From contig CAMCRZ010000004.1 in NCBI GenBank assembly GCA_945877425.1, positions 1-64,000 of the forward strand: DNA of 64,000 nucleotides, in the 5' to 3' direction. Below are positions 12,648 to 29,266 of this stretch, in pieces; position 1 is the stretch's first letter; each line of letters begins with the position of its first letter. The DNA is from an uncultured Treponema sp. (GTDB taxonomy: Bacteria; Spirochaetota; Spirochaetia; Treponematales; Treponemataceae). A model generated the notes under the pieces. The model ran no database searches. It saw only the letters and a list, made by a program, of their open reading frames with translations, and was not told where the DNA came from. The position numbers were made by a program, and so were the translations under genes.

Positions 12648-14714
12648 ATGGACGAGAAATTAGAGTATTTCAAGAAAAAGATTCTTGCACATCTTGACGA
12701 CCTGGAGCAGAAGGAAAACGCAGAGAAGAAAGAACTTAAAAAATCTTTACTTGCGTTTGAAATGACAAGCATTGAAAAAGCCGGCTATCCGGTTGGAACT
12801 ATCCGCGAATGGAAGGGCAAAAAGTACATTAAGGTTGCACCGGGAAAGTGGAAACCGAAGTATGACAGTCATTCACGCGGCGCAAAAATGGCTATTGCGG
12901 CCTTAAAGAAAAAAATTGACGCTTGCACGGATTCAGAAGAACTTATGCAGATTATTCTTGAAAACCGCGACAGATTCAGCGATGAAAACGGCAGACCTTT
13001 ACCTTTCGTAAAAGAACTTTCTGATTATATTTCCGGAAGAAATGACACAATCGAATCAGAAAAGAACGAAAAGAAAGCGACTGATGAAAAAATCAAAAAT
13101 CACTTTGAAGAACAGGCGAAGAAATACGGCGTTGATGTAAATGTCGAAAATGGCATTGTTTCAATTTCCAAAGACGGCAAAAAGTTTTCTCATGCGTTCA
13201 GATATGAGGAAGGCAAAAAAGACGGACACGGCGAAGATTGGAATGACGGAGCGTTCGGAAACCTTATTATTTACGCAAGACAGGAAGGTTTGAAAACTCC
13301 AAAAAAAGAAGAGCCTAAAAACATTGGATTTACTCTTGATGATATACGCCATATCGGAGACGGCAAGGAAACAAAGAAAGTAAACGATATGGAAACGGCA
13401 AAAAATGTCATAAAGCAGATTGCCGAAAAATACGGCGCGACAGAAAAAGGACGCAAGGAACTTTCTGATTTTATCGCGCTGAATATCGGCGGCAGCAATC
13501 CGCTTTATGACAAAATCTATGAAGAGTTCAATATCTCTTATGAAGACCTGGATATGGATTCAGACGCTTGCCATGACTTAATGCTCAATCAGTCTCTAGG
13601 AAAAGACACCAAAGAGCAGAGAGAACAGATTTCAGATTCTAAAAGCGAGTTTGAAGACAATTACAGGCAAATGCTTGAAAATGAAGACGACCGTTACAAA
13701 GAAGATGAAAAAATTAAGCGCGGAAAGGAAATTGACGCTCTTGTGGATAGCAAAGCGAAAGAATACGCAGAAGATTCTTACACAAAACACGCAGCACAGG
13801 ATTCTATCAAGCGTCTTGGAGAAAAGAAACTTACACAATACGCTAATTTGAATGTAAAGGACGATAAAGAGTTTTTAAGCGAATTGAAAAAGAAAATCGC
13901 TGAAACGGAAGAGGAAAACGGCGAGCCGGTAAGTGAATACACAATCGGAACGGCAGTTTGGAATCATTATCACAAAAAATACGCTAAAGAGTTTGCCCAG
14001 GAAAAATTAAAGACAATATATCAAAACGAACAGGACAAGGGCGAAGACATTCCGGTAGATGAAAAAGACATGAGCGAAGCTGAAAATATCATCGGAGCAG
14101 ATGTAAAGCGCATTTTGGAAGGCAGAGACACTTTCGGATATGCAAAACAGGGTCTTGTAGACAAAATAAAGCGTAGAATCCGTAACAATCCGGGTGTAGC
14201 AAGAGCAATGCTTGTTTACATTCAGAAGGAACAGGAAAAAACCGGAAAAAAGGTTTTCACTGACAAACATAGTATTTGGGAAGAACTTCCTAAGTTGAAC
14301 GAAAACGCAAGAAATGCAAAGGCAAACGGCGAAAGTGAAACAAAGACCGGTGTAAGCGGCAATCTTTACGAAGGTGAAGACGGAACAACCGTTGTTGAAA
14401 ACAAGGATTGGGGGCGTTATCAGATTTCCTTCCCTGGAAAGCCGGACGGCGAAACTATCTCAATGCTGAAAAGAAACGGTTTTAAGTGGTCGCCTTCTAC
14501 AAAAACCTGGGTATGTTTTAATACCGCAAATGGTGAATACTCTTTGAAACGCGTTGCTGAAAAACTCGGACTGAAAAAGAATGATGAGGTTAAAAAGTCG
14601 CTTTTTGATTCTCTTGAAGATTCATTCCCATACGATGATGAAATGGATTCAGAGGACGAAATAAAAAAAGCCGTAGCAGATGTATTAGATGAACTTGCAC
14701 AGGGGGATAAATAA
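12648..14714 (+). CDS. 688-residue polyvalent protein with shared N-terminal module
   Basis: The first 135 or so residues, including GYPVGTIREWKGKKYIKVAP and ENRDRFSDENGRPLPFVKEL, match the start of the protein at 26627 almost residue for residue. The rest of the two proteins differs. The centre is charged and helical. Near residues 580-640 is GRYQISFPGKPDGETISMLK followed by NGFKWSPSTKTWVC, a pattern found in large antirestriction-type proteins of phages and plasmids. The shared start may be a tag for loading into the capsid or for injection. That is an inference from its use on otherwise different proteins in one phage. No enzymatic motif is recognised. Confidence 0.6.
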   Translation: MDEKLEYFKKKILAHLDDLEQKENAEKKELKKSLLAFEMTSIEKAGYPVGTIREWKGKKYIKVAPGKWKPKYDSHSRGAKMAIAALKKKIDACTDSEELMQIILENRDRFSDENGRPLPFVKELSDYISGRNDTIESEKNEKKATDEKIKNHFEEQAKKYGVDVNVENGIVSISKDGKKFSHAFRYEEGKKDGHGEDWNDGAFGNLIIYARQEGLKTPKKEEPKNIGFTLDDIRHIGDGKETKKVNDMETAKNVIKQIAEKYGATEKGRKELSDFIALNIGGSNPLYDKIYEEFNISYEDLDMDSDACHDLMLNQSLGKDTKEQREQISDSKSEFEDNYRQMLENEDDRYKEDEKIKRGKEIDALVDSKAKEYAEDSYTKHAAQDSIKRLGEKKLTQYANLNVKDDKEFLSELKKKIAETEEENGEPVSEYTIGTAVWNHYHKKYAKEFAQEKLKTIYQNEQDKGEDIPVDEKDMSEAENIIGADVKRILEGRDTFGYAKQGLVDKIKRRIRNNPGVARAMLVYIQKEQEKTGKKVFTDKHSIWEELPKLNENARNAKANGESETKTGVSGNLYEGEDGTTVVENKDWGRYQISFPGKPDGETISMLKRNGFKWSPSTKTWVCFNTANGEYSLKRVAEKLGLKKNDEVKKSLFDSLEDSFPYDDEMDSEDEIKKAVADVLDELAQGDK

Positions 14715-14715
14715 A

Positions 14716-15978
14716 ATGATTGTTGTAAACAAATCACTGTATGACAAAATGGCGGAGCAGTATAACCTTGAAAAGGCTTTGGGGCATAAGTATATAAAGC
14801 GAGTGCCAAAAAAGTCCGGCAAAGGCTATATCTACTACTATTCAGACGGACACGGCGGACTTGTAGCGGGAAAACCGCCAAAGAACGAAACACCGAAAAA
14901 AGGCGGAGAAAATACCGCCGATTTTGGCGTGAAAGTCGGCGACAAAGTGTCTTTTGAATCAAAAGGCAAAATGCTTGAAGGAATTGTGCGCGGTGGCAAC
15001 AAGGATTCTATCATTATTGACGGAATCGGAGAAGGAAAAGGAGTACGCTATACCGTTCCTGGAAATCAAGTCAAAGAAAAAACAGGTAATGCAGACGGTA
15101 CTATTCCGGCTAAAGTATTCAGCGCAGCCGATTACAAGAAACAGTTTACAGACCCTCTCGCAACAAATGACGAAAACGGCATTAAACACATTCTTGATTC
15201 TTTCGGAGCGGAAGGAAGAGAAATTGCCGAAAAAGCAGCTGAGACAGAAAAGAGAGTTAAAGAAAGCAAGCAGACTATTGACCAATACAGGCTTGAAGGC
15301 GAAGGCGTATTTGCAAAATACACGCCGGAAAGAGAAAGACTTCACAATCAGATTATTGCGTCATTCTTTGAGCCGGATAAGATTCACTCGTCAAAACCGC
15401 CAAAAGGCGAAAAACCTACATTCGTTATGTTCGGCGGACGCGGCGGTAGCGGTAAATCTTGGTTTACAGACAAAGAACGCGCAAAAGCTGCCGGAGTTGA
15501 TGTTATGTTTGATTCTGATAAATATATCATCATTGACGCTGACGCAATCAAAGAAAAACTTAAACCGCCTTATGAAGGTTGGAACGCCGGAGTTGTTCAT
15601 GAGGAATCAAGCGACATCTCAAAAATGGTTATCGACATGGCTAAAAAACTCGGCTTGAACATTATTCTTGACGGCACAATGAGCAATCCGAAAAAAGCCG
15701 TAAAGCAAATGCAAGACTTCAAAAACCTGGGTTACCGCACGGAAGCTCATTATATGTTCTTGCCGGTACAGGAATCCACAAAAAGAGCAATCGGACGCTT
15801 TAAGACAAAGAATAACGATTATAGCGGCCGTTTTGTTCCTCTAAAGAATCTTGTAGGAATGACCGACAATGAACTTGCTTTTGATGAAGTCAAAAACATT
15901 GTTGATGATTGGAGTTTCAGAAGCAACTACAATGTTGAGCGCGGAAAACCGCCGATTCTTGTTTCCAAAAAGGAATAG
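14716..15978 (+). CDS. zeta-toxin-like P-loop kinase, probably injected
   Basis: The start ATG 14716 is preferred over the upstream in-frame codons because GGGGG lies before it. Residues 12-40 carry an HKYIKRVPKKSGKGYIYYY module like the one in the 1819-residue protein. Residues 240-255 contain the P-loop FVMFGGRGGSGKSWF. It is followed by IIDADAIKEKL and LNIILDGTMSNPKKA, the order seen in zeta toxins and related kinases. Zeta toxins phosphorylate UDP-activated sugars and block wall synthesis, but phage polyvalent zeta domains may have other targets. No epsilon-type antitoxin is seen beside it, only a 60-residue protein downstream. The 420-residue length fits an added N-terminal targeting region. 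Confidence 0.75.
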   Translation: MIVVNKSLYDKMAEQYNLEKALGHKYIKRVPKKSGKGYIYYYSDGHGGLVAGKPPKNETPKKGGENTADFGVKVGDKVSFESKGKMLEGIVRGGNKDSIIIDGIGEGKGVRYTVPGNQVKEKTGNADGTIPAKVFSAADYKKQFTDPLATNDENGIKHILDSFGAEGREIAEKAAETEKRVKESKQTIDQYRLEGEGVFAKYTPERERLHNQIIASFFEPDKIHSSKPPKGEKPTFVMFGGRGGSGKSWFTDKERAKAAGVDVMFDSDKYIIIDADAIKEKLKPPYEGWNAGVVHEESSDISKMVIDMAKKLGLNIILDGTMSNPKKAVKQMQDFKNLGYRTEAHYMFLPVQESTKRAIGRFKTKNNDYSGRFVPLKNLVGMTDNELAFDEVKNIVDDWSFRSNYNVERGKPPILVSKKE

Positions 15979-16008
15979 TCGTGTTATACTGTAAGCGAGG
16001 TAAGAGTT

Positions 16009-16191
16009 ATGGAAATGACAATGGAACAGAGCGTAAACGATGTTTACATGACAGAAAAGGAACTGAATAGCAAGTTCGCAGACTTGCCCGAAAATAATCA
16101 GAAACTTTTGCGGCAGATTGCAAAGAATTATGATAAAAAATACCCTGGAAACCTTTCTGACAAGCAGAAGAAGGAAACAGGCTTGAATTAA
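16009..16191 (+). CDS. 60-residue acidic helical protein, unknown
   Basis: The gene starts at ATG 16009 with GAGGTAAG ahead of it. A TATACT box lies at about 15983, so it may have its own promoter. It ends shortly before a clean terminator, and so appears to be a single-gene transcript. The product is polar and helical, with NNQKLLRQIAKNYDKKYPG near the centre. Its place after a zeta-like gene invites an antitoxin idea, but nothing in the sequence supports it directly. Confidence 0.5.
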   Translation: MEMTMEQSVNDVYMTEKELNSKFADLPENNQKLLRQIAKNYDKKYPGNLSDKQKKETGLN

Positions 16192-16221
16192 GCGCACCGC
16201 TACACTTTCTTGTGTAGTCAT

Positions 16222-16250
16222 AGGCTAGGCTCAGTCCTAGCCTTTTTTAT
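16222..16250 (+). terminator. intrinsic terminator
   Basis: AGGCTAGG (16222-16229) pairs perfectly with CCTAGCCT (16236-16243) over a 6-base loop. Six T's follow. A small 6-bp hairpin, CTACAC/GTGTAG, lies just upstream. It ends the 60-residue gene's transcript. Confidence 0.85.
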
Positions 16251-16373
16251 TTTAGGGAAATTAGAGGAAAATAGCGGAAATTTCCCTTAATTTTACTTTC
16301 CGTCTTAAAACGAAAATAGAGCCGATTATTATTTTACTTTTTATGCCGATAATCTTTTAGAGGTAAGAAGAAC

Positions 16374-16763
16374 ATGAGCGAAGAGACAGATGAAATAAAA
16401 AAAGTTGCTCCGATTATTCTTTCGGCGATTGTCGAGAAGGAAATTGCAGCTTTTAATGAGTTAAAGAAGGGCGAGTATGAAAACACCACATGGGCGGAAA
16501 ATATCTCATACCGCATTTATACAAACGGCTTTGACGCTGACGATTATGTTATACGCGATAGCGGTTATTCTGAGTTTTATAAAAATGTTCAGACCGCTAT
16601 TGAGAATCTCAACTTTTTTGACGGCGTAACTATTCAGAAATATAAAGAAATCCTGGAAGAAGAAAACGGCGGTTGTTCAGTAGATGTCATAGACGATATT
16701 TTCTGTAAAATCGTAACGCCTATTTACCCTTCCTTGCCGGACGAAAAGAAAAACAGTTTTTAA
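16374..16763 (+). CDS. 129-residue protein, unknown
   Basis: This is an acidic, mixed helical protein with an AGAGGTAAG ribosome site nine bases before ATG 16374. It stands alone between a terminator and a repeat-rich gap. It has no recognised motif. Features visible are an aromatic-rich middle (SYRIYTNGFDADDYVI) and a late cysteine pair separated by about ten residues. Confidence 0.55.
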   Translation: MSEETDEIKKVAPIILSAIVEKEIAAFNELKKGEYENTTWAENISYRIYTNGFDADDYVIRDSGYSEFYKNVQTAIENLNFFDGVTIQKYKEILEEENGGCSVDVIDDIFCKIVTPIYPSLPDEKKNSF

Positions 16764-16766
16764 TCA

Positions 16767-17024
16767 TCAACTTGCCGTCAACTTGCCGGCAGCTCAATCA
16801 GCAAGTTACAGTCAAATAAAAATCAGTTTTAAGAATTACATTAAAAATAAATCTTATTCCCGACACTTACTCTAAAATATGCCCTAAAACCGCCCTAGGA
16901 TTGCCGTAGGCGCGTTTATTTTGCAAAATCGACAAATTACACGACCGATATAAAACAACCTCATTTTAAGCCGTTTTTGAATTGTTCGGAAATTCCGAAC
17001 AGTTGAAAAGCAAGTTACAGTCAA
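16767..17024. repeat. repeat-rich intergenic region (tandem, direct and inverted repeats)
   Basis: This gap between two accessory genes has three repeat types. TCAACTTGCCG occurs twice in tandem at 16767-16788. GCAAGTTACAGTCAA occurs at 16801-16815 and again at 17010-17024. The palindrome TGTTCGGA-AAT-TCCGAACA lies at 16983-17001. AACTTGC and GCAAGTT are also complementary and can fold together. No gene is seen. The layout suggests protein-binding sites or the edge of an inserted cassette. Confidence 0.6.
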
Positions 17025-17033
17025 GTAAGACAA

Positions 17034-17252
17034 TCAGATAATCGGCTGATTCGTTTCATTGTCTATAAAGCGAATTTCTAAATGCGCGTCCAACGCTCCG
17101 GCAATCTTTTCAAGTTCTGAAATCTTAAAGGAATCATTCTTAAACTTACGGTGTAAGACTTGCGGTAATTGCTCCGTTTTTCTCGCAAGTTCAGCATGAG
17201 ACATCTTGTTTCTTTTGACTAAGCACAAGTCAATGTATTCAGAAATATTCAT
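17034..17252 (-). CDS. small XRE-family repressor
   Basis: The start is placed at ATG 17252 (MNISEYIDLC), because the upstream extension is a hydrophobic AT-rich run with no ribosome site. The 72 residues form a single helix-turn-helix domain, with AELARKTEQLPQVLHRKFKN as the DNA-contact region and ELEKIAGALDAHLEIRFID at the end. It is read away from the LPD29-like gene across a 144-base gap. That gap holds a perfect inverted repeat inside a promoter, so it probably represses that operon and itself. The family is clear; the operator assignment is inference. Confidence 0.8.
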   Translation of the reverse strand: MNISEYIDLCLVKRNKMSHAELARKTEQLPQVLHRKFKNDSFKISELEKIAGALDAHLEIRFIDNETNQPII

Positions 17253-17329
17253 AGCGTAAATTATAAGCATAAATGCGTAGTAAATCAATAAAAAAGATAA
17301 AAAAATAATCATTTATAATTACGATTTTG

Positions 17330-17358
17330 TTGACAATATAAGCAAAAAGGCTTATATT
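17330..17358 (+). promoter_or_regulatory. sigma70 promoter with embedded perfect palindrome operator
   Basis: TTGACA (17330-17335), a 17-base spacer and TATATT (17353-17358) make a near-consensus promoter. AATATAAGC (17335-17343) and GCTTATATT (17350-17358) are a perfect 9-bp inverted repeat spaced by six bases. It fills the space between and including part of the -10. Further ATAAGC copies lie at about 17360 and, in the divergent direction, at about 17266. Binding there by the neighbouring XRE protein would block the promoter. Confidence 0.8.
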
Positions 17359-17396
17359 ATAAGCGTAGGGATACTTCCCGAAGGAGAAGAAAGACT

Positions 17397-18218
17397 ATGC
17401 GCGAAAGAAGTTACAGGTTGGCAGCCGGCGGAGTTTGGAAGGAAAACATTCCGGTAAAATTAGAACGCGGGGCAAGGGTTTACGCTGAATGGGGGTATGG
17501 ATTTTCAGAAAGCGGAACTTTTGCAATCATCAGACAACGCGACAACGGCAATTTGGATATGGTTGAAATCGGCGGGCAAATGAGGCTTGTTTCAAATCAT
17601 GAGCCGATTTACGAAGGTTACTCACAGAGGTTCGGAATTGGAACTTACTTTGACGATAAAGAGCCGGATTTCAGATATTCAGAAAAGGAAATTGCGGACG
17701 CTATCGCGCTTGCGGAAGAAGAGGCAATCAGACTTGAAAATGAACGTCTTGAAAATGAACGGAAGGACAAGGAAACAAAGGAAAAACTCTTGAAAGAGTA
17801 TGACTTCCTGGAACGCGCAGAGCCTTATGATTACGGAAAAATTGCGGCAAAGAACTTACGCACTCTCTTGAAAAAGAAGTTCCCGAAACAGAAGTTCAGC
17901 GTAGCGAAGTCCGGCGGAGCGTATTACGTTAAGTGGACGGACGGCGTAGCAATGACAGAAGTTGAAAAGGTTACAAAGATGTTTTCGGGCGGATATTTTG
18001 ACGGCATGACGGATATGTGGCAAGACGTTAAAAACCTTTTTGGAGAACTTTTCGGAACGATTGATTATTGCTTTGAAGAACGCGAAATATCGGACGAATT
18101 GAGAGACAGGGTTTTTAAGGAATACACCACAGAAAACAACTTTAACCTGGAAGACAAAACAACACTTGAATGTGTATGGCGCGATGTCCGCAAGAGAATC
18201 AACGAGACATCTTACTAA
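17397..18218 (+). CDS. LPD29-domain-like accessory protein
   Basis: This is the first gene of a repressor-controlled cassette, with GAAGGAGAAG before ATG 17397. Residues 1-80 form a beta-rich domain and 100-135 a Glu/Arg-rich helix. Residues 145-215 read KNLRTLLKKKFPKQKFSVAK, then a YYVKWTDG turn, then GGYFDGMTDMW. This matches the general pattern of LPD29-type domains of large polyvalent antirestriction proteins, here standing alone. The function is not established; a role in host takeover or defence evasion is inference. Confidence 0.6.
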   Translation: MRERSYRLAAGGVWKENIPVKLERGARVYAEWGYGFSESGTFAIIRQRDNGNLDMVEIGGQMRLVSNHEPIYEGYSQRFGIGTYFDDKEPDFRYSEKEIADAIALAEEEAIRLENERLENERKDKETKEKLLKEYDFLERAEPYDYGKIAAKNLRTLLKKKFPKQKFSVAKSGGAYYVKWTDGVAMTEVEKVTKMFSGGYFDGMTDMWQDVKNLFGELFGTIDYCFEEREISDELRDRVFKEYTTENNFNLEDKTTLECVWRDVRKRINETSY

Positions 18219-18227
18219 AGCGAAAAA

Positions 18228-18250
18228 AAAGCCGGCAAAAGTCCGGCTTT
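18228..18250 (+). terminator. hairpin between first and second cassette genes
   Basis: AAAGCCGG (18228-18235) pairs with CCGGCTTT (18243-18250) over a 7-base loop. It has no long T-run, so it probably gives partial termination or protects mRNA ends and lowers expression of the downstream cassette genes. Confidence 0.6.
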
Positions 18251-18263
18251 AAGGGGGCATGAC

Positions 18264-18593
18264 ATGAGCGAACTTTGGAAAGCGGTACAAGCGGCGTGGA
18301 ATCCGGAAACGGCTTGCAAGACAAGAAGCGATAGTCTTATTTACATCGGCGATTGTGTAACGGTTGCAAGAGGGCGTAAATTGCCGATTGGAACTACCGG
18401 CAAGGTTTTGAGAATGTTTGAGAATCCTTACGACCCTATCACTTATGACAACGCAAAAGGCGCGCTTGTGTTGCAGACCGCCGGATATGATTGTGAAGCG
18501 ATTCAGTACACAAATGCAAAAGTGCAGCTCGAACTTGAAGACGGAAATAAGGTTTATACATACCTTAGAAATCTTGAAAAGAGAGGGGTGTGA
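18264..18593 (+). CDS. small beta-barrel-like accessory protein
   Basis: The 109-residue protein has YIGDCVTVARGRKLPIGTTG at residues 30-50. This is a KOW/SH3-like turn pattern found in plasmid and phage accessory proteins, often next to antirestriction genes. GGGGG lies eight bases before ATG 18264. It is the second gene of the cassette. The function is unknown. Confidence 0.55.
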   Translation: MSELWKAVQAAWNPETACKTRSDSLIYIGDCVTVARGRKLPIGTTGKVLRMFENPYDPITYDNAKGALVLQTAGYDCEAIQYTNAKVQLELEDGNKVYTYLRNLEKRGV

Positions 18594-18594
18594 T

Positions 18595-18906
18595 ATGTTT
18601 AAGGCAGAACTTGACGGAAAAGAAATTGAAGTAATGCAGCTTGAAGATTGGAAAACAAGCATTGAAAATGATTTTAAGCCGGGAGATTATTTTGACGAGG
18701 GTATATCATGGGATTTAATAAATTGCGTTCCGCCGTTAAACTTTTCTAACGGTTACTTCCAATGCGGAGAGCCACACAGTTATGTAAACGGAAAGCAGAC
18801 TTATCTTACACTTGAAAGAGTGTGCAGAGAGCCGGAAATATGGAAGTTCCTGGGATATTGCCACGCCGGGAAGTATGAAGAGCCACAAGAAGGAGTTACA
18901 AAATGA
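18595..18906 (+). CDS. 103-residue accessory protein, unknown
   Basis: The start is ATG 18595, one base after the previous stop and preceded by GAGAGGGGTG. The longer frame upstream only shadows the preceding gene. The product is acidic and has cysteines at several sites, but these are not in a clear metal-binding pattern. Its last four bases overlap the start of the HD-domain gene, so the two are coupled. Confidence 0.55.
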   Translation: MFKAELDGKEIEVMQLEDWKTSIENDFKPGDYFDEGISWDLINCVPPLNFSNGYFQCGEPHSYVNGKQTYLTLERVCREPEIWKFLGYCHAGKYEEPQEGVTK

Positions 18907-19472: not shown

Positions 19473-19497
19473 CAGATAATATTTTAGATTTTAGAAT
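19469..19497 (+). promoter_or_regulatory. sigma70-type promoter overlapping end of HD gene
   Basis: TTGACA (19469-19474), 17 bases, TAGAAT (19492-19497). The -35 overlaps the stop codon of the HD gene. A second TATAAT lies at 19522-19527 without a clear -35. A long hairpin follows within 60 bases. Confidence 0.65.
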
Positions 19498-19550
19498 GTA
19501 GAAAATAAGAACTTTTTGAATTATAATTCTTACATACGATGTACCTAGAT

Positions 19551-19620: not shown

Positions 19621-19649
19621 TGCCTTTTTAGGCTTTAGGGGTGCAATCC

Positions 19650-21149
19650 GTGAACGGCGAAGAAAAGTTAAACGACATTTATCTCAACTTACGCTTTAGG
19701 AAATCTAGCGAGCAATCATCATCAGAAATCGGAAAAACAGACGAATACGGCAACTATATTTTTGAAGTTGAGGCAAGCAATGAAAATCTTGACTTGCAGA
19801 ATCAAATTGTATTACAGAACGCCTTGCTTGAAAGTAAGGACAATTTTATAAAGTATGGCGTTATTTCTCACGACCACCAACACCACAAGAAAGACAAGAA
19901 CGGAAATCAGATAACAGATACAAAGAATATTATCGGCGAGCCTATTGATGTAAGGACTGACGGACGCACGACTTATGTTATCGGAAAACTTTACAAAGAT
20001 AACGATGTCGCAAAAGACTACATCAAAATGCTTAAAGACGGCTCTACAAGAGTTCGCGCAAGTATCGGTGGTATTTTTCCGGAAGTTGTCGCAGACGAAG
20101 TAACAGGTGCTGAAAAAGTAATTCATGTTCTTTGGAATGACCTTGCGCTTACCGCGACACCGGTAAATAACACCGTAGGACACGCAACTTTTGTGCGTTC
20201 TATGGATTCAGCGGAGTTTGTAAAGGCTTTATCCGCCGGAATTGGAACAGACCATAGCAATTTTGAAGGCGGCCGTTCTTTTATTCCGGAAAGTGTCGGC
20301 GGAAATACATTAAATACCCTGGAAGAAACTACATCTCTCATTGATAAAAACAAAATTAAGCAGTTAATGACGCAGCTTACAACCGGAAGAATTGGCACAA
20401 AAGAAGAGGCGGAAGCCTATCTTTTAGGACAGGGATTCAATAGCGAACAATCACGGCTTATTGTCCGTGAAATTATAGAACAAGGGGGGCTACTAATGAA
20501 AAGTTCATTTAGTGACCAAATCAAGAAATTGATGAAGTCTTTAAGTGGCGATTCAGAAGATGAAACAAAGAAGGCAGAAGATAAAGAACCTCTTTTTGCC
20601 AACGATGATTCAAATGATGAAGACGACACAATCAACCTCGATAACGAGGAAGATGAAAACGAAGACGATTCAACTTCTGATGACGAAGACGCGGACAATG
20701 AAGATACTGAAAAATCAGTAAAGAAATGCAATAAATCTATGTCCGCCGAAGGCGAAGAGGAAGTTGTTGACGCGACAGTGTTGCTTAAATCGCTCAATGA
20801 CGAACTCGAAAACTTGCGTAAGTCTCAGATTGACATCGGCAATGCCGTTGTTGCCCTTGGCAAAATGGTAGCCAAAGTAAGCGGGGAAAAACTTCCGCCG
20901 AAAGCCGTTAATTTTGCCAAATCTTTGGGAACAAATGCAAGCGGAAAAGTAAACGTTCCAAATGAAGTTCCTACACAGGCAGATTTTGAACGTGTCCAGG
21001 ACGTTCTTATGAAGAGCGTTCAGTCCGGTGAAATTTCTTTGCAGAAATCTTCAATGATTTCATCAGAATTTCAGCGAGCAATGAGAGGAAGCCGTTTAAG
21101 TCCGGAGACTTATAACTTCCTCCTTACAAAAATAAACGGAGGAAAGTAA
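19650..21149 (+). CDS. prohead protease fused to scaffold-like region
   Basis: I prefer GTG 19650, eight bases after AGGGG, to GTG 19641. Residues 25-190 look like an XkdF/S78-type prohead protease: YGVISHDHQHH near 70, then GEPIDVRTDG, then VRASIGGIFPEV near 135 with the serine. From about 290 the protein is helical, with a strongly acidic Asp/Glu/Ser run near 320-360, as in scaffolds. At about residues 195-225 it repeats the motif that starts the capsid protein (KALSAGIGTDHSNF, GGRSFIPE). This would shape and process the prohead. It is followed after one base by the capsid gene. Confidence 0.7.
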   Translation: MNGEEKLNDIYLNLRFRKSSEQSSSEIGKTDEYGNYIFEVEASNENLDLQNQIVLQNALLESKDNFIKYGVISHDHQHHKKDKNGNQITDTKNIIGEPIDVRTDGRTTYVIGKLYKDNDVAKDYIKMLKDGSTRVRASIGGIFPEVVADEVTGAEKVIHVLWNDLALTATPVNNTVGHATFVRSMDSAEFVKALSAGIGTDHSNFEGGRSFIPESVGGNTLNTLEETTSLIDKNKIKQLMTQLTTGRIGTKEEAEAYLLGQGFNSEQSRLIVREIIEQGGLLMKSSFSDQIKKLMKSLSGDSEDETKKAEDKEPLFANDDSNDEDDTINLDNEEDENEDDSTSDDEDADNEDTEKSVKKCNKSMSAEGEEEVVDATVLLKSLNDELENLRKSQIDIGNAVVALGKMVAKVSGEKLPPKAVNFAKSLGTNASGKVNVPNEVPTQADFERVQDVLMKSVQSGEISLQKSSMISSEFQRAMRGSRLSPETYNFLLTKINGGK

Positions 21150-21150
21150 A

Positions 21151-22548
21151 ATGGCTTTTTTCGACAATTCTAACGCACAGAATTATTCAGCCGCCGATGT
21201 TGAAGCTCTCAACAAGGCATTGTCCGCCGGCACAGGAACTGATTCTAGTCAGTTCACAGGCGGACGCGCTCTCATTCCGGAAGATTGTGAACAGGAAACT
21301 TTGAATATCCTTGCACAGTCAAAGGAAGACTGTAAGGTTATGTCTTCTATCAAGACAACAAAGGTTGGCTCAACTGTTCATGAGATGAATCTCCGCGATG
21401 ATGAAGGTGATTACAAACACCTTTCTGTTGTCGAAGGCGATGATTCACCGATTGAAACAAATCAGTCAATCAAGCGCAAGACTTTTGACATGAAGTTCTT
21501 GCAGACAAAACGCGGAATCACTCAGCAGATGATTGCCGCTGAAACTTTCGAGGGCGCACTTGCAAGCGAAAAAATCAGCGGTATCAACACAATCATGAAG
21601 GCTTGTGAATACCTTTGTTTCCACGGCGATTCAGCAGTTGTACCTACTGAATTTGACGGTTTTGAAGCACAGATTCGTAAAGCTGCAAAAGCAGACCAGA
21701 ACATCATCGACCTTCGCGGTGTTTCTATCGGCACATACGGTGAAAAACTGTTTGACGAAATTTCCGGAAACATCTTTGAAAAGGGCGGTTTTGTAGACAA
21801 GACTTTGTTCCCGGCAGTTCTTGCAAAAGACATCAAGGAACTCTTTGCCGACAGAATCCGCTTTGATGTTGCAGACCGCTTTGGCGCATTGCAGCAGTTG
21901 CCGGCTTATCCTACCGCTACAGGTTCAACAATCAAGTTTGTTGGCGAAGGTGCGGGTACTGATAAGTTCTACCATGTCAAAGGTAAGGTAGCAGCCGAAG
22001 GTAACGCTACATTCCGTCCGGCAGCTCCGACAAGCGTAACCGCCTCAGCGACTACACAGACAGGCTCTAAGTTCCTTACGGCTGACGCGGGCGACTACAA
22101 GTACACTGTACACGCTATCAACGCAGCCGGTATTTCAGCCGGAACTGCCGTTGCCGCAGCCGTAACAGTTGCAGCCGGAGAAGGCGTAACTCTTACAATT
22201 ACACCTGGTTCGGGCGTAAAGGCAACAGGTTACATCATTTGTCGTTCAAAGAAAGACGGCGATGAAGTAATGGAAATGGTTCGCGTTGCTGACAGTGGAG
22301 AGGCTACTACAACATTCAAGGACATCAACGAAGAACTCCCTGGAACTGCCTCAATGCTCTTCTTGACTGAAAACAAGATTCAGTCAATCTACAAGTTCGG
22401 ACAGTTAATGCCTGTAAGCACTATCCCTCTCGGAAAGCGCGCAGCTATTGACGAGTTCCTTGTTGCAACTTACGGCGCACTTGAATTGTACGCTCCTAAG
22501 TATTGCGGACTTGTTAAGGGTATCTCTTACAAGGGCGGCCTTTACTGA
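21151..22548 (+). CDS. major capsid protein with Ig/FN3-like insertion
   Basis: The 465-residue protein follows the protease/scaffold gene and is followed by a strong terminator, typical of the main capsid gene. The N-terminus has KALSAGTGTDSSQF and GGRALIPE, then HK97-type sequence such as MKFLQTKRGITQQMIAAETF and FPAVLAKDIKELFADRIRF. Residues 290-395 are Thr/Ala/Ser-rich beta repeats (GDYKYTVHAINAAGISAG) resembling a fibronectin-type or Ig-like domain. They sit inside the capsid fold, and the last 60 residues return to it. Such insertions usually project from the capsid surface. Confidence 0.8.
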   Translation: MAFFDNSNAQNYSAADVEALNKALSAGTGTDSSQFTGGRALIPEDCEQETLNILAQSKEDCKVMSSIKTTKVGSTVHEMNLRDDEGDYKHLSVVEGDDSPIETNQSIKRKTFDMKFLQTKRGITQQMIAAETFEGALASEKISGINTIMKACEYLCFHGDSAVVPTEFDGFEAQIRKAAKADQNIIDLRGVSIGTYGEKLFDEISGNIFEKGGFVDKTLFPAVLAKDIKELFADRIRFDVADRFGALQQLPAYPTATGSTIKFVGEGAGTDKFYHVKGKVAAEGNATFRPAAPTSVTASATTQTGSKFLTADAGDYKYTVHAINAAGISAGTAVAAAVTVAAGEGVTLTITPGSGVKATGYIICRSKKDGDEVMEMVRVADSGEATTTFKDINEELPGTASMLFLTENKIQSIYKFGQLMPVSTIPLGKRAAIDEFLVATYGALELYAPKYCGLVKGISYKGGLY

Positions 22549-22578
22549 TAAGGCAGATGTCGCATAAGACATAAACCG

Positions 22579-22625
22579 AAAAGCACGGTGCGGATATGTT
22601 TTACCGTGCCGTGCTTTTTTCTTTT
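22579..22625 (+). terminator. strong intrinsic terminator after capsid gene
   Basis: A 15-bp stem with two wobble pairs joins 22579-22593 to 22604-22618 and is followed by a long T-rich run. This limits transcription beyond the capsid gene. Confidence 0.9.
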
Positions 22626-22654
22626 TTTTTACAATTTGACAGGAGAAAATGAAA

Positions 22655-23059: not shown

Positions 23060-23060
23060 A

Positions 23061-24191
23061 ATGACAGTAACCGCAGCGAGTGTAAAAGGTAAAATCGTTA
23101 TTACAATCTCTAATGCCGGAAATTATCGGCTTGAAAGAAAACAGTTTGATTCTGATGATTGGCTTGTTTACACCGCTAGCGGTTTTGCCGTTGAATCGGA
23201 AGAAAATCCGGCTATTGCCATAACTACTTGCGATGTCCTGGACGTAAGCAACCTTGTAGAAGGTAAACTTTATCAATACAGGATTGTTGATTTTGATAAA
23301 GAAAATCCGGAAGAATCAGACTATACAACTTCAAGTTTGATTAAATGCGGAGAAACTACGCCTATCGGCTATTCTTTTGAAAACTATCACGCTCCGGAAG
23401 GACAGTGGGGCGAATTGGTAACGCCGGACGACATAAGGTTTACATACCTTTGGGGAACAGATTTTAAGGCTACCAACGGCGCAAGTTATACGGACGCTCA
23501 GATAAGATTCTTTATTAACGCGGCCGTAGAAGAAATTGCGCGTATGCTTGATATAACAATCGTAAAACGAAAAATCCGCTATAACGCCGTAGACAGGAAT
23601 CTAAAAAAAGGAACTGATTACGATGTGGACGAAGCGGTTTACGACTTTAAGTTTTCAAAGATTTCACGCTATGGCGTTATTAAAACGCGCCAAAGACCTA
23701 TTCTTAAACTCCACAAATTAAACCTTTTGAGCCGTTACGCGAATGTAAAGGACTTAAAAGAAACAACTATCGTGGATAAGACAAAGGGTATCTTAAAACT
23801 CATGGAAAGACCGATAAGACCGTCCGACAGAACGTCCGGAATCAGCACGGCTATCGGTATTTACGGCAATCAGACAATAAACGCTCATTTATTCTATGCG
23901 ATTGATTATGATGTCGGTTTTGAGACTTCTGACGATGTTCCGGCAGACTTACGGCAGACTATCGCAAAATACGCGAGCGTACAACTTTTGAACATAATCG
24001 GAGACGGCTTGATGTCGGGATTCTCTTCAAGTTCTTTGAGCATGGACGGACTTTCTGAATCGTTCAGTTCTACACAGTCGGCTACATCGGCTTATTTTGG
24101 AGCGCGTATCAAGGAATATAAAGACGACATAGACAAATACATCAAGGAAAACAAACACAAGTTCGGCTCTATGAATATTGGCTCACTATAA
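23061..24191 (+). CDS. head-tail connector protein with N-terminal beta domain
   Basis: Residues 1-85 are an FN3-like beta domain (KIVITISNAGNYRLERKQF; LVEGKLYQYRIVD). Residues 110 onward match in style the helical phage head-completion/adaptor proteins (FTYLWGTDF, SYTDAQIRFFINAAVEEIAR, then a mixed alpha/beta region). The gene follows the capsid block and is read one base after the preceding gene. It would bridge portal and tail. The assignment rests on position and helical pattern. Confidence 0.6.
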   Translation: MTVTAASVKGKIVITISNAGNYRLERKQFDSDDWLVYTASGFAVESEENPAIAITTCDVLDVSNLVEGKLYQYRIVDFDKENPEESDYTTSSLIKCGETTPIGYSFENYHAPEGQWGELVTPDDIRFTYLWGTDFKATNGASYTDAQIRFFINAAVEEIARMLDITIVKRKIRYNAVDRNLKKGTDYDVDEAVYDFKFSKISRYGVIKTRQRPILKLHKLNLLSRYANVKDLKETTIVDKTKGILKLMERPIRPSDRTSGISTAIGIYGNQTINAHLFYAIDYDVGFETSDDVPADLRQTIAKYASVQLLNIIGDGLMSGFSSSSLSMDGLSESFSSTQSATSAYFGARIKEYKDDIDKYIKENKHKFGSMNIGSL

Positions 24192-24228
24192 AAAACTTAA
24201 ATAAATATCCATAAAGGGGGTAAATGTT

Positions 24229-24432
24229 ATGGAAAAGATTAAGGCGTTCTTTCAGAACAAAATCACTAAGATTGTTGCTTGGCTTGTCCTGGCTCTTGAT
24301 ATTGTAGTTCTCTTTTTGGGAAACGTTACAGAATCAGAGATTGTTGACGGCGTAAAAATGGTTTTTGTCATTATCGCCGGCGTTGCTATGTTCATCGCGT
24401 TTATCTCGGAAAGAGTATCAAAGAAAAAGTAA
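24229..24432 (+). CDS. small two-span membrane protein, holin-like
   Basis: This 67-residue protein has two hydrophobic spans (IVAWLVLALDIVVLFLG and MVFVIIAGVAMFIAFI) flanked by lysines, the general form of small phage holins. It lies far from the lysis genes at 50-52 kb, so a holin role is doubtful. GGGGG precedes ATG 24229. A hairpin terminator follows. Confidence 0.55.
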   Translation: MEKIKAFFQNKITKIVAWLVLALDIVVLFLGNVTESEIVDGVKMVFVIIAGVAMFIAFISERVSKKK

Positions 24433-24437
24433 ATTAT

Positions 24438-24520
24438 AGGCGGAAGTGCGCTCAACTCCATTGAAAGGTTTTCCGAGTTTTTCCCTTTCAATCCTCAAGG
24501 GCGCATTTCCGCCTTTCCTT
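24438..24520 (+). terminator. large nested hairpin
   Basis: A 16-bp stem (24438-24453 with 24499-24514, wobble pairs included) encloses a second stem, ATTGAAAGG with CCTTTCAAT. A T-rich tail follows. It lies between the membrane protein and a cysteine-rich small gene. Confidence 0.7.
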
Positions 24521-24530
24521 AATATTGATT

Positions 24531-24725
24531 ATGAAAACAAAAGTTTGTAAGGACTGTAAATACCTTGCAGTTCTTTATAGAAATAAAGGCGGAATGGAAT
24601 TGTATTGCAATAAGAATGAGCGTTCCATGAATCCGCGACACCTGGAAGGGTGCATAAATTACGAGAGTAAAAGGAATAAGCGTTATGAAACCTTGGGAAC
24701 TTTACGAATATCAAAAGAATCTTGA
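24531..24725 (+). CDS. 64-residue cysteine-rich protein
   Basis: The frame begins at ATG 24531 (MKTKVCKDCKYLAVLY) and has CxxC near the start, YCN in the middle and HLEGCINY later. Such four-cysteine patterns bind one zinc ion in many small phage proteins. It overlaps the start of the lipase-like gene by 41 bases, so the two are probably co-translated. The function is unknown. Confidence 0.6.
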   Translation: MKTKVCKDCKYLAVLYRNKGGMELYCNKNERSMNPRHLEGCINYESKRNKRYETLGTLRISKES

Positions 24726-25311
24726 TTACAAGACAAATACTCTTGATTACGATTGGAGAGTTAAGGTTGAAAATGAAGAGAAGACTATTTATGTTTTTTC
24801 GCAGTTCTCAACTTCAACTTTTGATTGGATTGTAAACTTTCTTTTCTTCTTTATTCCGCAAATACGGCGTTGGTATGTCTACTTTGCTTGTCTTGGTTGG
24901 CAGACCGCCTTTAATTCATGCAAAGGTTTGATGATGAATGAAGTCATGTCGGCTATGAATCTTTTTCCAGGTTACAAAGTTGTTTGTTGCGGACATTCAT
25001 ACGGCGGCGCGGGTTCTGTCTTGGTTGGAATTGAAATATTCTTCCAAACAGGCATAAGACCGGATTTAATCACTTTCGGCGCGCCTAAACCGCTTGTTTT
25101 CTTATTCACAAAACTTATTACACGGCTTTTCTTTAATAAAGTCGTTCAGTATGCGCATAAAGCGGACATTGTTACATATATGCCACCTCTACCCGGCTAT
25201 TGGAATGTAAAGGTTAATAGAATCGGAAAGTTCAGTTTCAAGGCTTTGTTTGACGGCAATACTCACCAATGCTACGGCGACAAGAGCCTTTATGAGGAAG
25301 TGGAATCATGA
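24685..25311 (+). CDS. class 3 lipase-like alpha/beta hydrolase
   Basis: The 208-residue protein contains YKVVCCGHSYGGAGSVLVG near residues 95-113, the nucleophile elbow GHSYG of class 3 lipases. LITFGAPKPL follows near 130, the typical strand after the elbow. HKADIVTYMPPL near 155 supplies an aspartate candidate, and a late histidine in NTHQCYGD could complete the triad. A hydrophobic segment near residues 45-75 may insert in a membrane. It lies among connector genes with its own AAAGGAAT ribosome site. A lipase in a virion could help cross the spirochaete outer membrane; this is inference. Confidence 0.7.
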   Translation: MKPWELYEYQKNLDYKTNTLDYDWRVKVENEEKTIYVFSQFSTSTFDWIVNFLFFFIPQIRRWYVYFACLGWQTAFNSCKGLMMNEVMSAMNLFPGYKVVCCGHSYGGAGSVLVGIEIFFQTGIRPDLITFGAPKPLVFLFTKLITRLFFNKVVQYAHKADIVTYMPPLPGYWNVKVNRIGKFSFKALFDGNTHQCYGDKSLYEEVES

Positions 25312-25442
25312 TTTGGTCTTTCGCTTTGTTCGTTCCAATTTGCGCTTGTTACTGTTTAATTTATTTTCCTAATGTTTGGGCAGAAACTGAAAAAACGCCT
25401 GGACAAGTTAGGGCGAGTTACGGACGCAAAAAGACGAGTTAG
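25308..25442 (+). CDS. 44-residue membrane or secreted peptide
   Basis: The frame starts at ATG 25308, overlapping the lipase stop in ATGA. It has one hydrophobic span with three cysteines (SFALFVPICACYCLIYF) and a polar tail. It could be a lipase partner or a membrane anchor. It is too short for any family call. Confidence 0.45.
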   Translation: MIWSFALFVPICACYCLIYFPNVWAETEKTPGQVRASYGRKKTS

Positions 25443-25463
25443 GACAAGATAGAGAGGTAAGTT

Positions 25464-26630
25464 ATGGGAACAACAGGACTTGGTAAAAACTCACCTGTTA
25501 TTTTAACACTTGGCAAAGAAAATTACGAAGCTCTCATAGACAGACACGGACAGTGGGTGCGTTGGCGAGTTGCAACGAAGTGTCCTTGCGCAACTAAAGG
25601 AAGTCCGGACATTCATTGCCGTATTTGCGGCGGCCGTGGTTACACATATTCATTTCAAAAAAATAAAATTGTTACTCAAACTGTTATGTGCGTAGATTCA
25701 AGCGGTGTTATTGAACTAGATTCAGAATATGAATCATGCAGCTTGAAGAGGGTTTATGACAGTAACGGAAACGAATATCCAAACGCCGAAAAACAAGGCT
25801 TGTATCTCTTGCTGAATAGTTCAGAATTGCCTATAAAAGGCTCTTATGTTACGGCGGTTATGACTGACGCTATTCTACATACGGTTGAATCGGCTGATTG
25901 TGAAAAAATTGGCGCGGGATATTACCGCGTAAAGGGATTGAGAAGCGTAAAAACGAACATTGAAGGCTTGTATCACTCAGTTCCGGGCGACATTGAAAGC
26001 ATAGAAAAGATTATTGACGCTAACGGCGTTGAATATACGGCGAAGGAATTAAGACAGGACACTTTCTACATTGAGCCTACTCTTGATGAAGACGAGGAAG
26101 AAGTAGAAATTGCAGAGCCTTTGACGGTTCAGAATGTGAGTTATTTACCGCCTTTTCTGTTTGTTATTTTGTCGCAGAATCTGAAAGAAGCTGACGAAAA
26201 CTTAGTGCAGAAATTGAACGGAGACGCGGTTTTAACATTTCCTTGGAATTGCGATGTTTCTAATGACGATGTTATTACCGTTTTAAGCGGAACATACACG
26301 CAGAAAGATGTAGTTAAGAAAAAGGACGCTGATTACGATGTAATTGAGGCCTATTTTGTCGATGAAATTGTTTCTTGCGTTGGAACTGAAAGAGAGTATG
26401 TTCCTGGAACTGACTTCATTCTTTGCGGGGCAAACTACATTAAATGGCTTTGCGATGATTGTCCGGAAGACGGCGAAAACTATTCAATTACTTACAGGGT
26501 ATTCCCTACTTACAAGGTTGTTCAGAATATACCGCAGATTCGTACAAGCGAAAATCAGCGTATGCCGAAAAAAGCGGTTATTAAGTTATTAAGCACATAC
26601 GGCGAAAAAACAGGAATTAACAGACAATGA
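25464..26630 (+). CDS. phage head/neck protein with zinc-binding N-terminus
   Basis: The 388-residue protein has a cysteine cluster at residues 40-62 (CPCATKGSPDIHCRICGGRG), a zinc-knuckle pattern seen in phage neck and minor head proteins. The rest is beta-rich with no catalytic motif. It overlaps the next polyvalent gene by four bases. The position between connector and tail genes supports a neck role. The start ATG 25464 has GAGAGGTAAG ahead. Confidence 0.6.
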   Translation: MGTTGLGKNSPVILTLGKENYEALIDRHGQWVRWRVATKCPCATKGSPDIHCRICGGRGYTYSFQKNKIVTQTVMCVDSSGVIELDSEYESCSLKRVYDSNGNEYPNAEKQGLYLLLNSSELPIKGSYVTAVMTDAILHTVESADCEKIGAGYYRVKGLRSVKTNIEGLYHSVPGDIESIEKIIDANGVEYTAKELRQDTFYIEPTLDEDEEEVEIAEPLTVQNVSYLPPFLFVILSQNLKEADENLVQKLNGDAVLTFPWNCDVSNDDVITVLSGTYTQKDVVKKKDADYDVIEAYFVDEIVSCVGTEREYVPGTDFILCGANYIKWLCDDCPEDGENYSITYRVFPTYKVVQNIPQIRTSENQRMPKKAVIKLLSTYGEKTGINRQ

Positions 26631-29266
26631 AAGATTTAGAATACTTCAAAAAGGAACTTATTAAGATTCTCGATAAAAAAGAACGCGAAGAAAAGGCAGA
26701 AATCAAAAAGTCTTTAGCGTTTACTATGGATATGCTCATTGAAAAATCAAGTAGCGGTTATCCTGTTGGCACGATTAGAGAATGGAAAGGTAAGAAATAT
26801 CAGAAAATCGCGCCGGGTAAATGGCGTAGAAAGTATTCAAGCGAAGAAAAAGGAATCCGCATGAGCATTGCGGCCTTAAAAAAGGCTATCGATAAATGCT
26901 CTACTTCACAGGAACTTCTCAACCTGGTGTTGCAGAATCGTGATAGATTTGCAGACGATAACGGCAGACCGTTGCCGATTGTTAAGGAATTGTCGGAATA
27001 TGCAAGTGCAAAGAATGATAAACTCGAAAAACCGAAACTCACATCTAATATGGAAAAAGTCAAAGATGAGGTAAAACATGACGGTGAGTATGTTCTTACA
27101 AAAAATGGAAGTAAAGACTTCGGAGAAATTACGCCCGAAATTGCGAAAAAGATAGGTAGACAGGCGGGTAAAATAAGATTAAGAATCGGCGAACAAAACG
27201 GAACTAAAAACGATTATGGAGAATTACATCTCGAAAGAGACGCTAGATTAAAAGACTTGAATAGTGCGGGTTTTACAAGTGCGAGAGATTTTGCAGAGTT
27301 TGTATGTTCTGATTATGACGCTATTTATCCAAACGGAATGGGTTTAATATTATATAAAAAAGGGAAGAAACACAATCAATTATATATACAATTAACACCT
27401 GTAAACGGAAGTAATGATTTTTACGATGTCAAAACCGGTGTTGCAAGTAACAGGGAACAAATGAAAAATAAAACACCGCTTTGGGTTAATCCAAAAAGCG
27501 GTGTTCTAACATCGGAAAAGGAAAGTGCGCATGACAATCAATCCAAAAATGGATTCCCCTTGCGCGATTTAGCGGGCAATCCCGACAACTCAAATATAGC
27601 GCAGAATAACTCAACTGTCAACAAAAAAATGACTTTTGCGACAGATTTTTGCAAGAGCATTGAAGACCTTACAAACTACGCAAAAGAGAACTACGGCATT
27701 ACAATTAAAAATGAGGATAAAAAAGGCGGTAATACTGAAAAGATTCTCAAATGCTTTGACATTACAGAGCGTTTCATTAAAAAAGTTCCTGGACTTGAAA
27801 AGTATGTAAAGACCATTATTTACGGAAAAATCGACCATAAAACAATGGGTTATTATAATCAAAACGACCGCTTACTGAAAGTCGGTGAATTTGGAGAAGA
27901 TGTTACCGAAGAACAGGTAAGAACAGGCTATTACGGAGAAATGAAACATACCGTAAGGCATGAAATGACACACGCTATTCAGAACATGATTGTAAATGAG
28001 TATTTGTCGGATAAAAAGAAAGAACAGTACGAACAGGCTTTCAAAGAGAGTTTTAGAAACGCTTATTATACCGGCAAGCCTAAAGATATGGCTAAAATAG
28101 CAAACTTCTTTTTACATCGTGTTATCGGCGGACAAGATTTCTTAGCTGCGGCCTTTGATTTGTTCAAAGAGTACAAGGACGGAGATTATTACAGAAGTAT
28201 GTATTCTCAATTTGCTAGAAACCTTGTAAGCGAAAAGATTGTTGATACCGCATTAAGCAACCTTGGAATTGATAAAAAACGCCGTCATTTTTCCCTTAAA
28301 ACGGCAGTTGGGAAGAATGTTGAAGAGTTGAAGGGAGCAACAAAAGAAGTCGCAAGAATTTCAAAATATGCCCTTTCTGAGGACGCTGAATGTATGGCAG
28401 ACGCTATCGCGGACGCTTTGGGAAGTGGAGAAAATGCAGCTCCATTGTCAAAAGAGATTTTGAAGGTTGTAGAAAACATTGTAGGAAGTAAAGGTATTGA
28501 AATGTTGAAATCTATTTATGCAAAGAAAAAGCCTTTGTTTGTGGTTAAAAAGTCTTTTGCTGATAACTTTATGAACAAACGCTCTATTCCTACCTTGCAG
28601 AAATCTATTTTTGTTCGCGGAGATTTTGACGCATACAGAATATCTGACGCAGAACTTAAGGAACATAGTATTTTTGCGAGAACGGAAGACGGCTGCGAAT
28701 ATGACTTGCAGAATCCGACAGAAAACTTTTACTACACTCTTAAAAAGAATCTTGAAAAATCTCTTACATGGAGCGGACACAAGTTACAGGATAGAACTTC
28801 CTGGAACGGCTTAAAAATATCCATTGAGAACAAAAAAGGCTCGGTGCGCCGTGGAGTTGATAAAGACGGACATCAGTGGGCGACAAAAATGCACTTTGAT
28901 TATGGATATATTCGCGGTTCAGAAGGAACAGACGGCGACCATGTAGATTGTTACCTTGGCGACAACATGGACGCAAAGAAGGTTTATATTGTTCATCAGA
29001 ACGACCCGGTAACGCATAAATACGATGAAGATAAGTGTATGCTCGGTTTTGATACTCTAGAAGACGCTAAAAAGGCTTATTTAATGCAGTATGACAGACC
29101 GGGATTTTTAGGCAAAATTGACACAATGGATTTTGACGAGTTCAAAGAGTTTATCTTGCTGAAAAGGAATCACGGAAAAAAGATTATCAAGTCTTATACC
29201 GATTTTGTAAAATCTATCGGAGAAAACTTTGATTTTGAAACTATGCGGAAGGTTTGCATTATATGA
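26627..29266 (+). CDS. polyvalent protein: shared N-module, nuclease-like, metallopeptidase and pyrophosphatase-like domains
   Basis: Residues 1-130 repeat the module at the start of the 688-residue protein (GYPVGTIREWKGKKYQKIAP). Residues 145-300 resemble phage BECR-type nuclease domains (KIRLRIGEQNG, then YGELHLERDARLK, ARDFAEFVCSDYDAIYP). They use more AGA and TTA codons than the neighbours. Near residue 443 is VRHEMTHAIQNM, an HExxH zinc peptidase site. Residues 720-860 contain GYIRGSEGTDGDHVDCYLGD, as in the InPase domains of polyvalent proteins. Such proteins are packaged and injected. Each activity is inferred from motifs. Confidence 0.75.
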   Translation: MKDLEYFKKELIKILDKKEREEKAEIKKSLAFTMDMLIEKSSSGYPVGTIREWKGKKYQKIAPGKWRRKYSSEEKGIRMSIAALKKAIDKCSTSQELLNLVLQNRDRFADDNGRPLPIVKELSEYASAKNDKLEKPKLTSNMEKVKDEVKHDGEYVLTKNGSKDFGEITPEIAKKIGRQAGKIRLRIGEQNGTKNDYGELHLERDARLKDLNSAGFTSARDFAEFVCSDYDAIYPNGMGLILYKKGKKHNQLYIQLTPVNGSNDFYDVKTGVASNREQMKNKTPLWVNPKSGVLTSEKESAHDNQSKNGFPLRDLAGNPDNSNIAQNNSTVNKKMTFATDFCKSIEDLTNYAKENYGITIKNEDKKGGNTEKILKCFDITERFIKKVPGLEKYVKTIIYGKIDHKTMGYYNQNDRLLKVGEFGEDVTEEQVRTGYYGEMKHTVRHEMTHAIQNMIVNEYLSDKKKEQYEQAFKESFRNAYYTGKPKDMAKIANFFLHRVIGGQDFLAAAFDLFKEYKDGDYYRSMYSQFARNLVSEKIVDTALSNLGIDKKRRHFSLKTAVGKNVEELKGATKEVARISKYALSEDAECMADAIADALGSGENAAPLSKEILKVVENIVGSKGIEMLKSIYAKKKPLFVVKKSFADNFMNKRSIPTLQKSIFVRGDFDAYRISDAELKEHSIFARTEDGCEYDLQNPTENFYYTLKKNLEKSLTWSGHKLQDRTSWNGLKISIENKKGSVRRGVDKDGHQWATKMHFDYGYIRGSEGTDGDHVDCYLGDNMDAKKVYIVHQNDPVTHKYDEDKCMLGFDTLEDAKKAYLMQYDRPGFLGKIDTMDFDEFKEFILLKRNHGKKIIKSYTDFVKSIGENFDFETMRKVCII

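Follow-up and report, generated by a model that had tools for sequence, protein, structure and literature searches.

What does a phage gain from giving two different proteins the same beginning? The question is raised by the first 64,000 nucleotides of contig CAMCRZ010000004.1 from an uncultured Treponema sp. (GenBank assembly GCA_945877425.1), the whole of which is called the window here. Two of its open reading frames, encoding proteins of 688 (12648-14714) and 879 amino acids (26627-29266), share an N-terminal module; both lie on the + strand, as does every part of them described below. They were found where a preliminary description of the sequence had put them and, again as it said, in one phage, their starts being 13,979 bp apart in a single head-to-tail gene run. 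Judging from the layout and sequence of the module, we think it probable that its first part serves as a propeptide: it would bring cargo into the prohead and be cut off by the prohead protease, the cargo being left with a basic tag.

BLASTP aligned residues 5–147 of the 688-aa protein with residues 4–148 of the 879-aa protein at 60% identity (E 6e-47), about 140 N-terminal residues being common to the two. The next segment reached only E 0.52, and the remainders are therefore unrelated. The claim of a shared N-terminus followed by unrelated sequence is borne out, although "nearly the same" was too strong for copies at this level of identity. The same residue occurs at 61% of the aligned codons and third codon positions are 38% identical, which shows that the two copies diverged long ago and have been maintained by selection, and rules out recent duplication or gene conversion. 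An assembly-wide scan (2.4 Mb) revealed no module copies beyond these two.

Thirty-nine modules were used for the alignment, the AlphaFold2 model and the tree. Four parts can be recognized. A helix at the N-terminus is followed by a flexible linker containing phi-x-K-[SAG] sites, by a three-strand basic tag ("GTIREWKGKKY..APGKW") and by a helical domain. The model (mean predicted local distance difference test, pLDDT, 77; predicted template modelling score 0.52) has a helix at 3–38, three strands at 52–70 and helices at 77–138, while residues 29–44, which contain site 1 and end at K44, fall below pLDDT 50. In the 688-aa protein the module spans residues 1–139 (12648..13064). It comprises a predicted propeptide (12648..12779; helix 3–38 running into the low-confidence linker 29–44), the predicted prohead-protease sites LKK32/S33 (12741..12746) and IEK44/A45 (12777..12782), the slash marking the candidate cut, the tag AGYPVGTIREWKGKKYIKVAPGKWKPKYDS (12780..12869; net charge +6, a three-strand beta meander at residues 52–70) and the helical domain (12870..13064). 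The cargo body follows at 13065..14714; its residues 565–640 match a PHROG annotated as primase, and further sites are predicted near its C-terminus (VKK650/S and IKK674/A). The second copy occupies residues 1–137 of the 879-aa protein (26627..27037), with predicted sites IKK28/S and IEK40/S and a tag of net charge +8.

Site 2 reads phi-x-K-[SAG] in 39/39 rows, always with 5–8 residues between its lysine and the GT of the tag, so that at the sequence level every N-terminal stretch ends at the site type predicted for the phage's own prohead protease. A further phi-x-K-[SA] site lies upstream of site 2 in 34 of the 39. When the non-redundant set was widened to distant copies that have the tag alone, the site was present in 46/49, compared with 10.7% at random places; one of the misses (L065; numbers with L or G are our own handles for the relatives) reflects a wrong start of the regular expression, the site being visible there. 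The invariant columns (K44, G50, W55, G57, K62, G78 and F110) form no catalytic set, which rules out the enzyme function that the preliminary description had named as a possible refutation. The module had no match in Pfam or NCBIfam and only chance-level ones in the PHROGs (best E 0.048), and Foldseek of the model against the PDB gave nothing at E 0.001 or better (best 1.2). One unnamed viral homologue was found in BFVD, and a VIA comparison reached Z values of up to 6.2 with helical proteins described as common; these outcomes do not establish a novel fold. With a presumably removable N-terminal stretch and a tag that would stay on, the module appears to be composite, and "domain", the word used earlier, is therefore too simple a name.

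The consensus for the proposed cleavage site was drawn from a homologous mature capsid chain and from scaffolds. The full-length staphylococcal capsid homologue 5lii (463 aa) has the sequence VVK-SFQTGYG, and 9row_B, a chain of 439 aa, starts at SFQTGYG. L-x-K-[AS]-L was matched by regular expression in 20 of 21 capsid homologues; in the remaining one (L070), LAKAL lies outside the range of the expression and was seen by eye. The SPO1 scaffold gp3.3 contains 11 such sites in 244 aa. No paper giving the cut site of the SPO1 or staphylococcal capsid turned up in open-licence PubMed Central.

Occurrences of phi.K[SA]phi were then counted by protein class, against shuffled sequences. The two module proteins of the window have 11 (1.4 shuffled) and its four head proteins 11 (1.7); in relatives, nine module proteins have 35 (6.3) and 14 head proteins 61 (6.9). 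Host proteins (5 versus 3.9) and other phage proteins (4 versus 3.1) were examined alongside, as were tail proteins (7 versus 3.4 in the window, and a second count of 3 versus 3.3). The motif is enriched in the head proteins and not in those of the tail. Controls with R, T/N or E replacing K or S/A stayed near 1. Over 41 complete module proteins, the first 100 residues hold 48 sites (5.6 shuffled) and the last 60 residues 17 (2.1 shuffled, with a maximum of 6 in 500), and the 26,621 residues between these ends hold 51, or 1.9 per 1000, compared with 1.3 for the reversed motif. The C-terminal excess, the PDB chain start and the SPO1 scaffold are the independent checks of the motif.

The module genes lie among head genes. 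The order is TerL (2350), portal (4112), MuF (5789), methylase-helicase (7073), the first module protein (12648), zeta-toxin (14689), prohead protease (19641), capsid (21151), neck genes, the second module protein (26627), then sheath and tail; the first module gene is thus between MuF and the protease, and the second adjoins a head/neck gene (25464). The protease gene (19641..21149, + strand, like the other neighbours given with coordinates here) encodes a protein that matches PHROG 1028 (head maturation protease; E 1.9e-12) and continues into a fused, scaffold-like tail; it has five phi-x-K-[SA]-phi sites. Its alignment shows K21 invariant in 11/11 rows, likewise D78, H79 and S141, the last being the predicted catalytic serine, and Foldseek of its model (mean pLDDT 57.5) returned weak scores, T4 gp21 (5jbl; E 0.06, probability 0.85) on top and herpes proteases lower. 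The capsid protein (21151..22548) is of the SPO1 type (PHROG 752 major head protein, E 2e-61; PDB 9vel Gp6.1, E 4.7e-24), with a predicted site LNK22/A23. We also observed that the mature capsid start (KALSAGxGTDxSxFxGGRxLIPE) recurs midway along the protease-scaffold protein, directly after the protease domain (approximately 20217-20300 versus 21211-21300 in the window; also in G041, G044, G045 and others), possibly mimicking the capsid N-arm.

The MuF-type minor head protein (5789..7030) has four sites. Two other neighbours carry the so-called HKY tag, a second short N-terminal element: the 1819-aa methylase-helicase polyvalent protein (7073..12532; Pfam), where it follows IEK22/A, and the zeta-toxin protein (14689..15978; Pfam), where it follows VNK15/S and LEK29/A. 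By regular expression, phi-x-K-[SAG] lies just upstream in 14/14 distinct HKY-like tags. The module had been called distinct from this tag; it is indeed a separate sequence family, but the design is not distinct. Different sequences follow one plan, a site and then a short basic aromatic stretch. Since there is no such helix in the HKY proteins, entry into the head could depend on the tag itself.

Scans gave four and then 40 module loci on viral contigs and three on genome contigs; the module was present in 7/195 genomes drawn from the taxonomic family and 6/296 from the phylum, its own genome being counted in both. A phage has one to three module genes, and two modules stand in one chain in L008, L009, L060, L063 and L069. 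More distant phages (e.g. L006, L084, L085, L087 and L088) possess the tag without the helical domain. A tblastn search of 50,697 phage records with the module gave no match, and neither a report of it nor one on Treponema phage cargo was found in open-licence PubMed Central. In a single-contig relative (G078) there are three module loci (L041, L045 and L048), two of 354 aa and one of 559 aa, as if truncated or interrupted. L008 and L009 represent nearly the same phage in metagenome-assembled genomes labelled Bacilli and Treponema, both from horse faeces, and the clash is probably a matter of binning or naming.

The module goes with one capsid type. We searched for a capsid gene in 28 module records, picked from the 40 loci and earlier ones so as to avoid duplicates, and found an SPO1-type gene in 19, including 16 of the 17 that are at least 27 kb; in the exception (G232, 39 kb) the module gene is near the contig end. 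The same capsid gene occurs in 3/3 further records found via the tag and in 5/7 of an earlier set. Overall, it is encoded by 18 of 19 module contigs that reach 27 kb. As background, 454/50,697 isolate records match the SPO1-type capsid, in a different collection and set against module records that are mutually related. In the maximum-likelihood tree the subfamilies span phages where resolved (15/36 inner branches are unresolved); for example, L004:2170 groups with L005:5572, L071:11100, L075, L077 and L080. This grouping, together with the saturated third positions, points to old duplications kept by selection.

Following an earlier suggestion, the range of C-terminal partners was examined with Pfam over 43 module proteins, and many differing domains were found: ddrB-ParB (8), InPase (4), LPD1 (4), LPD3, PBECR3, PBECR2 and DUF5661 (3 each), with single cases of zeta toxin, poly-A polymerase head, sigma-70 region 2 and ART. 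L060 (2130 aa) has the order module, PBECR2, LPD1, module, ddrB-ParB, and is polyvalent in the sense of having at least two disparate activity domains near virion genes. The 879-aa protein is so too, with a Pfam InPase and an HExxH region recognized by eye. The latter, a putative zinc-peptidase region (27656..28510) between predicted sites FCK343/S and MLK628/S, contains HEMTH, which we take to be a zinc-peptidase motif, and has no Pfam match. The InPase cassette (PF18823, E 2.5e-45; 28760..29191) lies between predicted sites LEK711/S and IIK855/S. Residues 628–711 bear a cluster of four sites, an after-the-fact observation in a single protein.

InPase cargo keeps its start site while moving between MuF and module proteins. 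In the window it belongs to the second module protein; L028, L029, L031 and L032 have it on their MuF head protein. Thirteen of 14 distinct InPase carriers have a site, by regular expression, near the start of the domain, 12 of them reading phi-x-K-SLT; several also show a K-S or K-A site just past it, and L063 ends GKMLK. Six isolate records served as controls. In PHB04, the one of the six whose capsid type was checked individually (SPO1-type), LLKA lies 16 residues before the InPase match and MIKA follows the match. No K-A site lies upstream in Pbunavirus Ab27, FEC19, Maja and Vibrio 1.031, and Tenacibaculum Larrie has IKKA upstream, which may be chance. Two of the MuF-InPase proteins contain intein-like insertions (L028:3540-7259 and L029:3298-6915), that in L028 with a Pfam intein splicing match (E 3.2e-8, under the curated cut-off) and LAGLIDADG, that in L029 recognized by eye only.

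Putting together the observed architecture, conserved sites, SPO1-type capsid link and exchange of effector domains, we suggest that cargo proteins are loaded into the prohead and matured by way of the module, which acts as a mobile unit. The N-terminal helix and linker would form a removable propeptide bringing the cargo into the prohead, where the 19641 protease would cut the linker at phi-x-K/[SAG], a site type that the capsid and scaffold proteins also have. The mature cargo would have the short basic aromatic beta-tag as its new N-terminus, followed by the small helical domain, and would be ejected along with the DNA. That the tag holds cargo to DNA or the inner head while the propeptide does the targeting is a guess at how the work is split. 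Loading, cutting, the identity of the targeting part and ejection are inferred here from the module's anatomy and from precedents in T4, giant phages and P1. The earlier proposal of a capsid-loading or ejection domain gains partial support in this way from the head genes, the SPO1-type capsid, the injected-effector domains and the presence, in the module, of the sequence of the phage's predicted head-maturation cleavage site.

Several points weigh against this proposal. The AlphaFold2 model is of moderate quality, and the start of 9row_B is where its depositors began the chain, on a basis that we have not read. The motif was first spotted in these very proteins, and their counts are therefore partly post hoc. 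The tail proteins of the window lean the same way (p 0.06), the HKY proteins show no significant bulk excess (4 versus 1.7 and 6 versus 3.9 shuffled), and in relatives the reversed motif is raised about twofold, though less than the forward one (module proteins 14 versus 6.5, head proteins 13 versus 7.1). Outside the module there are 45 sites where 25.6 were expected, with 47 reversed against the same 25.6; a general spread of sites through cargo bodies is ruled out by this unspecific excess, and sites are therefore claimed at the ends only, the bodies being largely spared. Finally, SPO1, Fi4S2 and Dolphis had no module match, so that such phages do not need it.

Other explanations account for parts of these data. 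The module might simply bind scaffold or capsid and carry cargo in, with K-[SAG] as an uncut structural element. The head location and partners fit this equally, and the fixed distance from K44 to the tag is what one folded surface would give, but the same motif stands in the unrelated capsid N-arm, scaffold, protease N-terminus, HKY proteins and InPase boundaries, which indicates a shared enzyme rather than a shared fold, and no ordered structure is modelled at residues 29–44; we consider packaging without cutting unlikely. A function after injection, for example in oligomerisation or in membrane or nucleoid binding of the effectors, and unrelated to loading, would make sense of a basic tag (+6 to +8) remaining on the mature protein and of effectors as partner domains. 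It leaves unexplained both why a head-type cleavage motif should stand without exception in the same position ahead of the tag and why the link to one capsid type is so tight, and also seems improbable.

Cutting by an enzyme other than the prohead protease has been suggested in principle: section 8 of the polyvalent-protein paper by Iyer et al. 2017 (PMC5512222) proposes processing by zincin-like peptidase domains, and HExxH motifs do occur in the second module protein and in partners in L004, L005, L008 and L009. The sites, however, have the motif seen in capsid and scaffold, and carriers that lack such a peptidase (the 688-aa protein, HKY proteins and MuF) have them as well, making this route very unlikely. 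Hardly credible, too, is the view that recombination concentrated at the shared 5' ends lets cargo genes be swapped, the encoded protein part being incidental. Differing partners after the same front end would be expected of it, but protein identity well above that of third codon positions would not, and the copies group by subfamily across phages, which argues that they were kept as proteins. Returning to a loading propeptide, a wider scheme is quite possible, though we lean slightly against it: a head-based polyprotein system, in which effectors are interchangeable cassettes bounded by prohead-protease sites, with the module or the HKY tag as exchangeable front ends, trimmed or split in the prohead so that each piece acquires a new basic N-terminal tag. 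If this is true, the chains with two full modules are direct traces of it, as is the InPase cassette, which is bounded by sites and occurs on MuF, module and other proteins.

The gp21 protease of T4 recognizes a hydrophobic-x-charged residue site ending in E. The module site ends in K, and the module adds a tag and helical domain, retained on the cargo and common to large multidomain effectors, but it too begins with a short N-terminal stretch that ends at a predicted prohead-protease site. In T4, according to passages of PMC9024508 and PMC10052503, internal proteins (IPI-III and Alt) have a short N-terminal capsid targeting sequence that is removed by the prohead protease, and the cargo is injected with the DNA. 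The lack of a PHROG or Pfam match to known targeting sequences is to be read with the poor coverage of such short signals there. In SPN3US/phiKZ, a single prohead protease processes head and inner-body proteins, whose propeptides contain several copies of the motif and tend to leave the head, but the motif is A-x-E and the propeptides are 111–254 residues long, plus two short ones (PMC10052503). In P1, the N-terminal 30 residues of DarB suffice to carry a reporter into the capsid, and the authors report no common sequence among Dar N-termini (PMC9024508), unlike the one module across two to three cargo genes per phage here. The polyvalent proteins of Iyer et al. 2017 share the cargo domains (ddrB-ParB, InPase, LPD, PBECR and ART) and the idea of packaging near late genes; that text assigns processing to zincin-like or assemblin-like peptidases and contains none of the terms "targeting signal", "signal peptide" and "propeptide" (PMC5512222). 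SPO1/Twort-type phages are alike in capsid homology, the L-x-K-[AS] site and scaffolds rich in K-S sites; the differences are that protease and scaffold are one protein in the window and that no module was found in SPO1, Fi4S2 or Dolphis. How large multidomain effectors enter phage heads is largely open, P1 having one mapped signal and no common one. If the cut site of a common module can be foretold, this would make the head cargo of uncultured phages predictable from sequence, would explain the swapping of effector domains between carriers, and would offer a K-specific loading tag for placing chosen proteins in SPO1-type heads.

Some minor features were also recorded. The motif NRSxAMLGNxNAxK is repeated within large cargo proteins (7073-12532 in the window, L009 5643-9857 and L029 6929-11155), and NPNHDxxGRFTFG stands close to the beginning of the MuF protein of L029. 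The terminase of a nearly identical phage contig (L025; G039:164-634) has an in-frame TGA near its start. Lastly, a diversity-generating retroelement lies at 45116-49056 of the window, with an Mtd-like target (PF21916), a reverse transcriptase (PF00078) and two copies of a 113-nt repeat (47500-47612 and 47776-47888), between which 15 of the 16 differences are at an A of the template copy.
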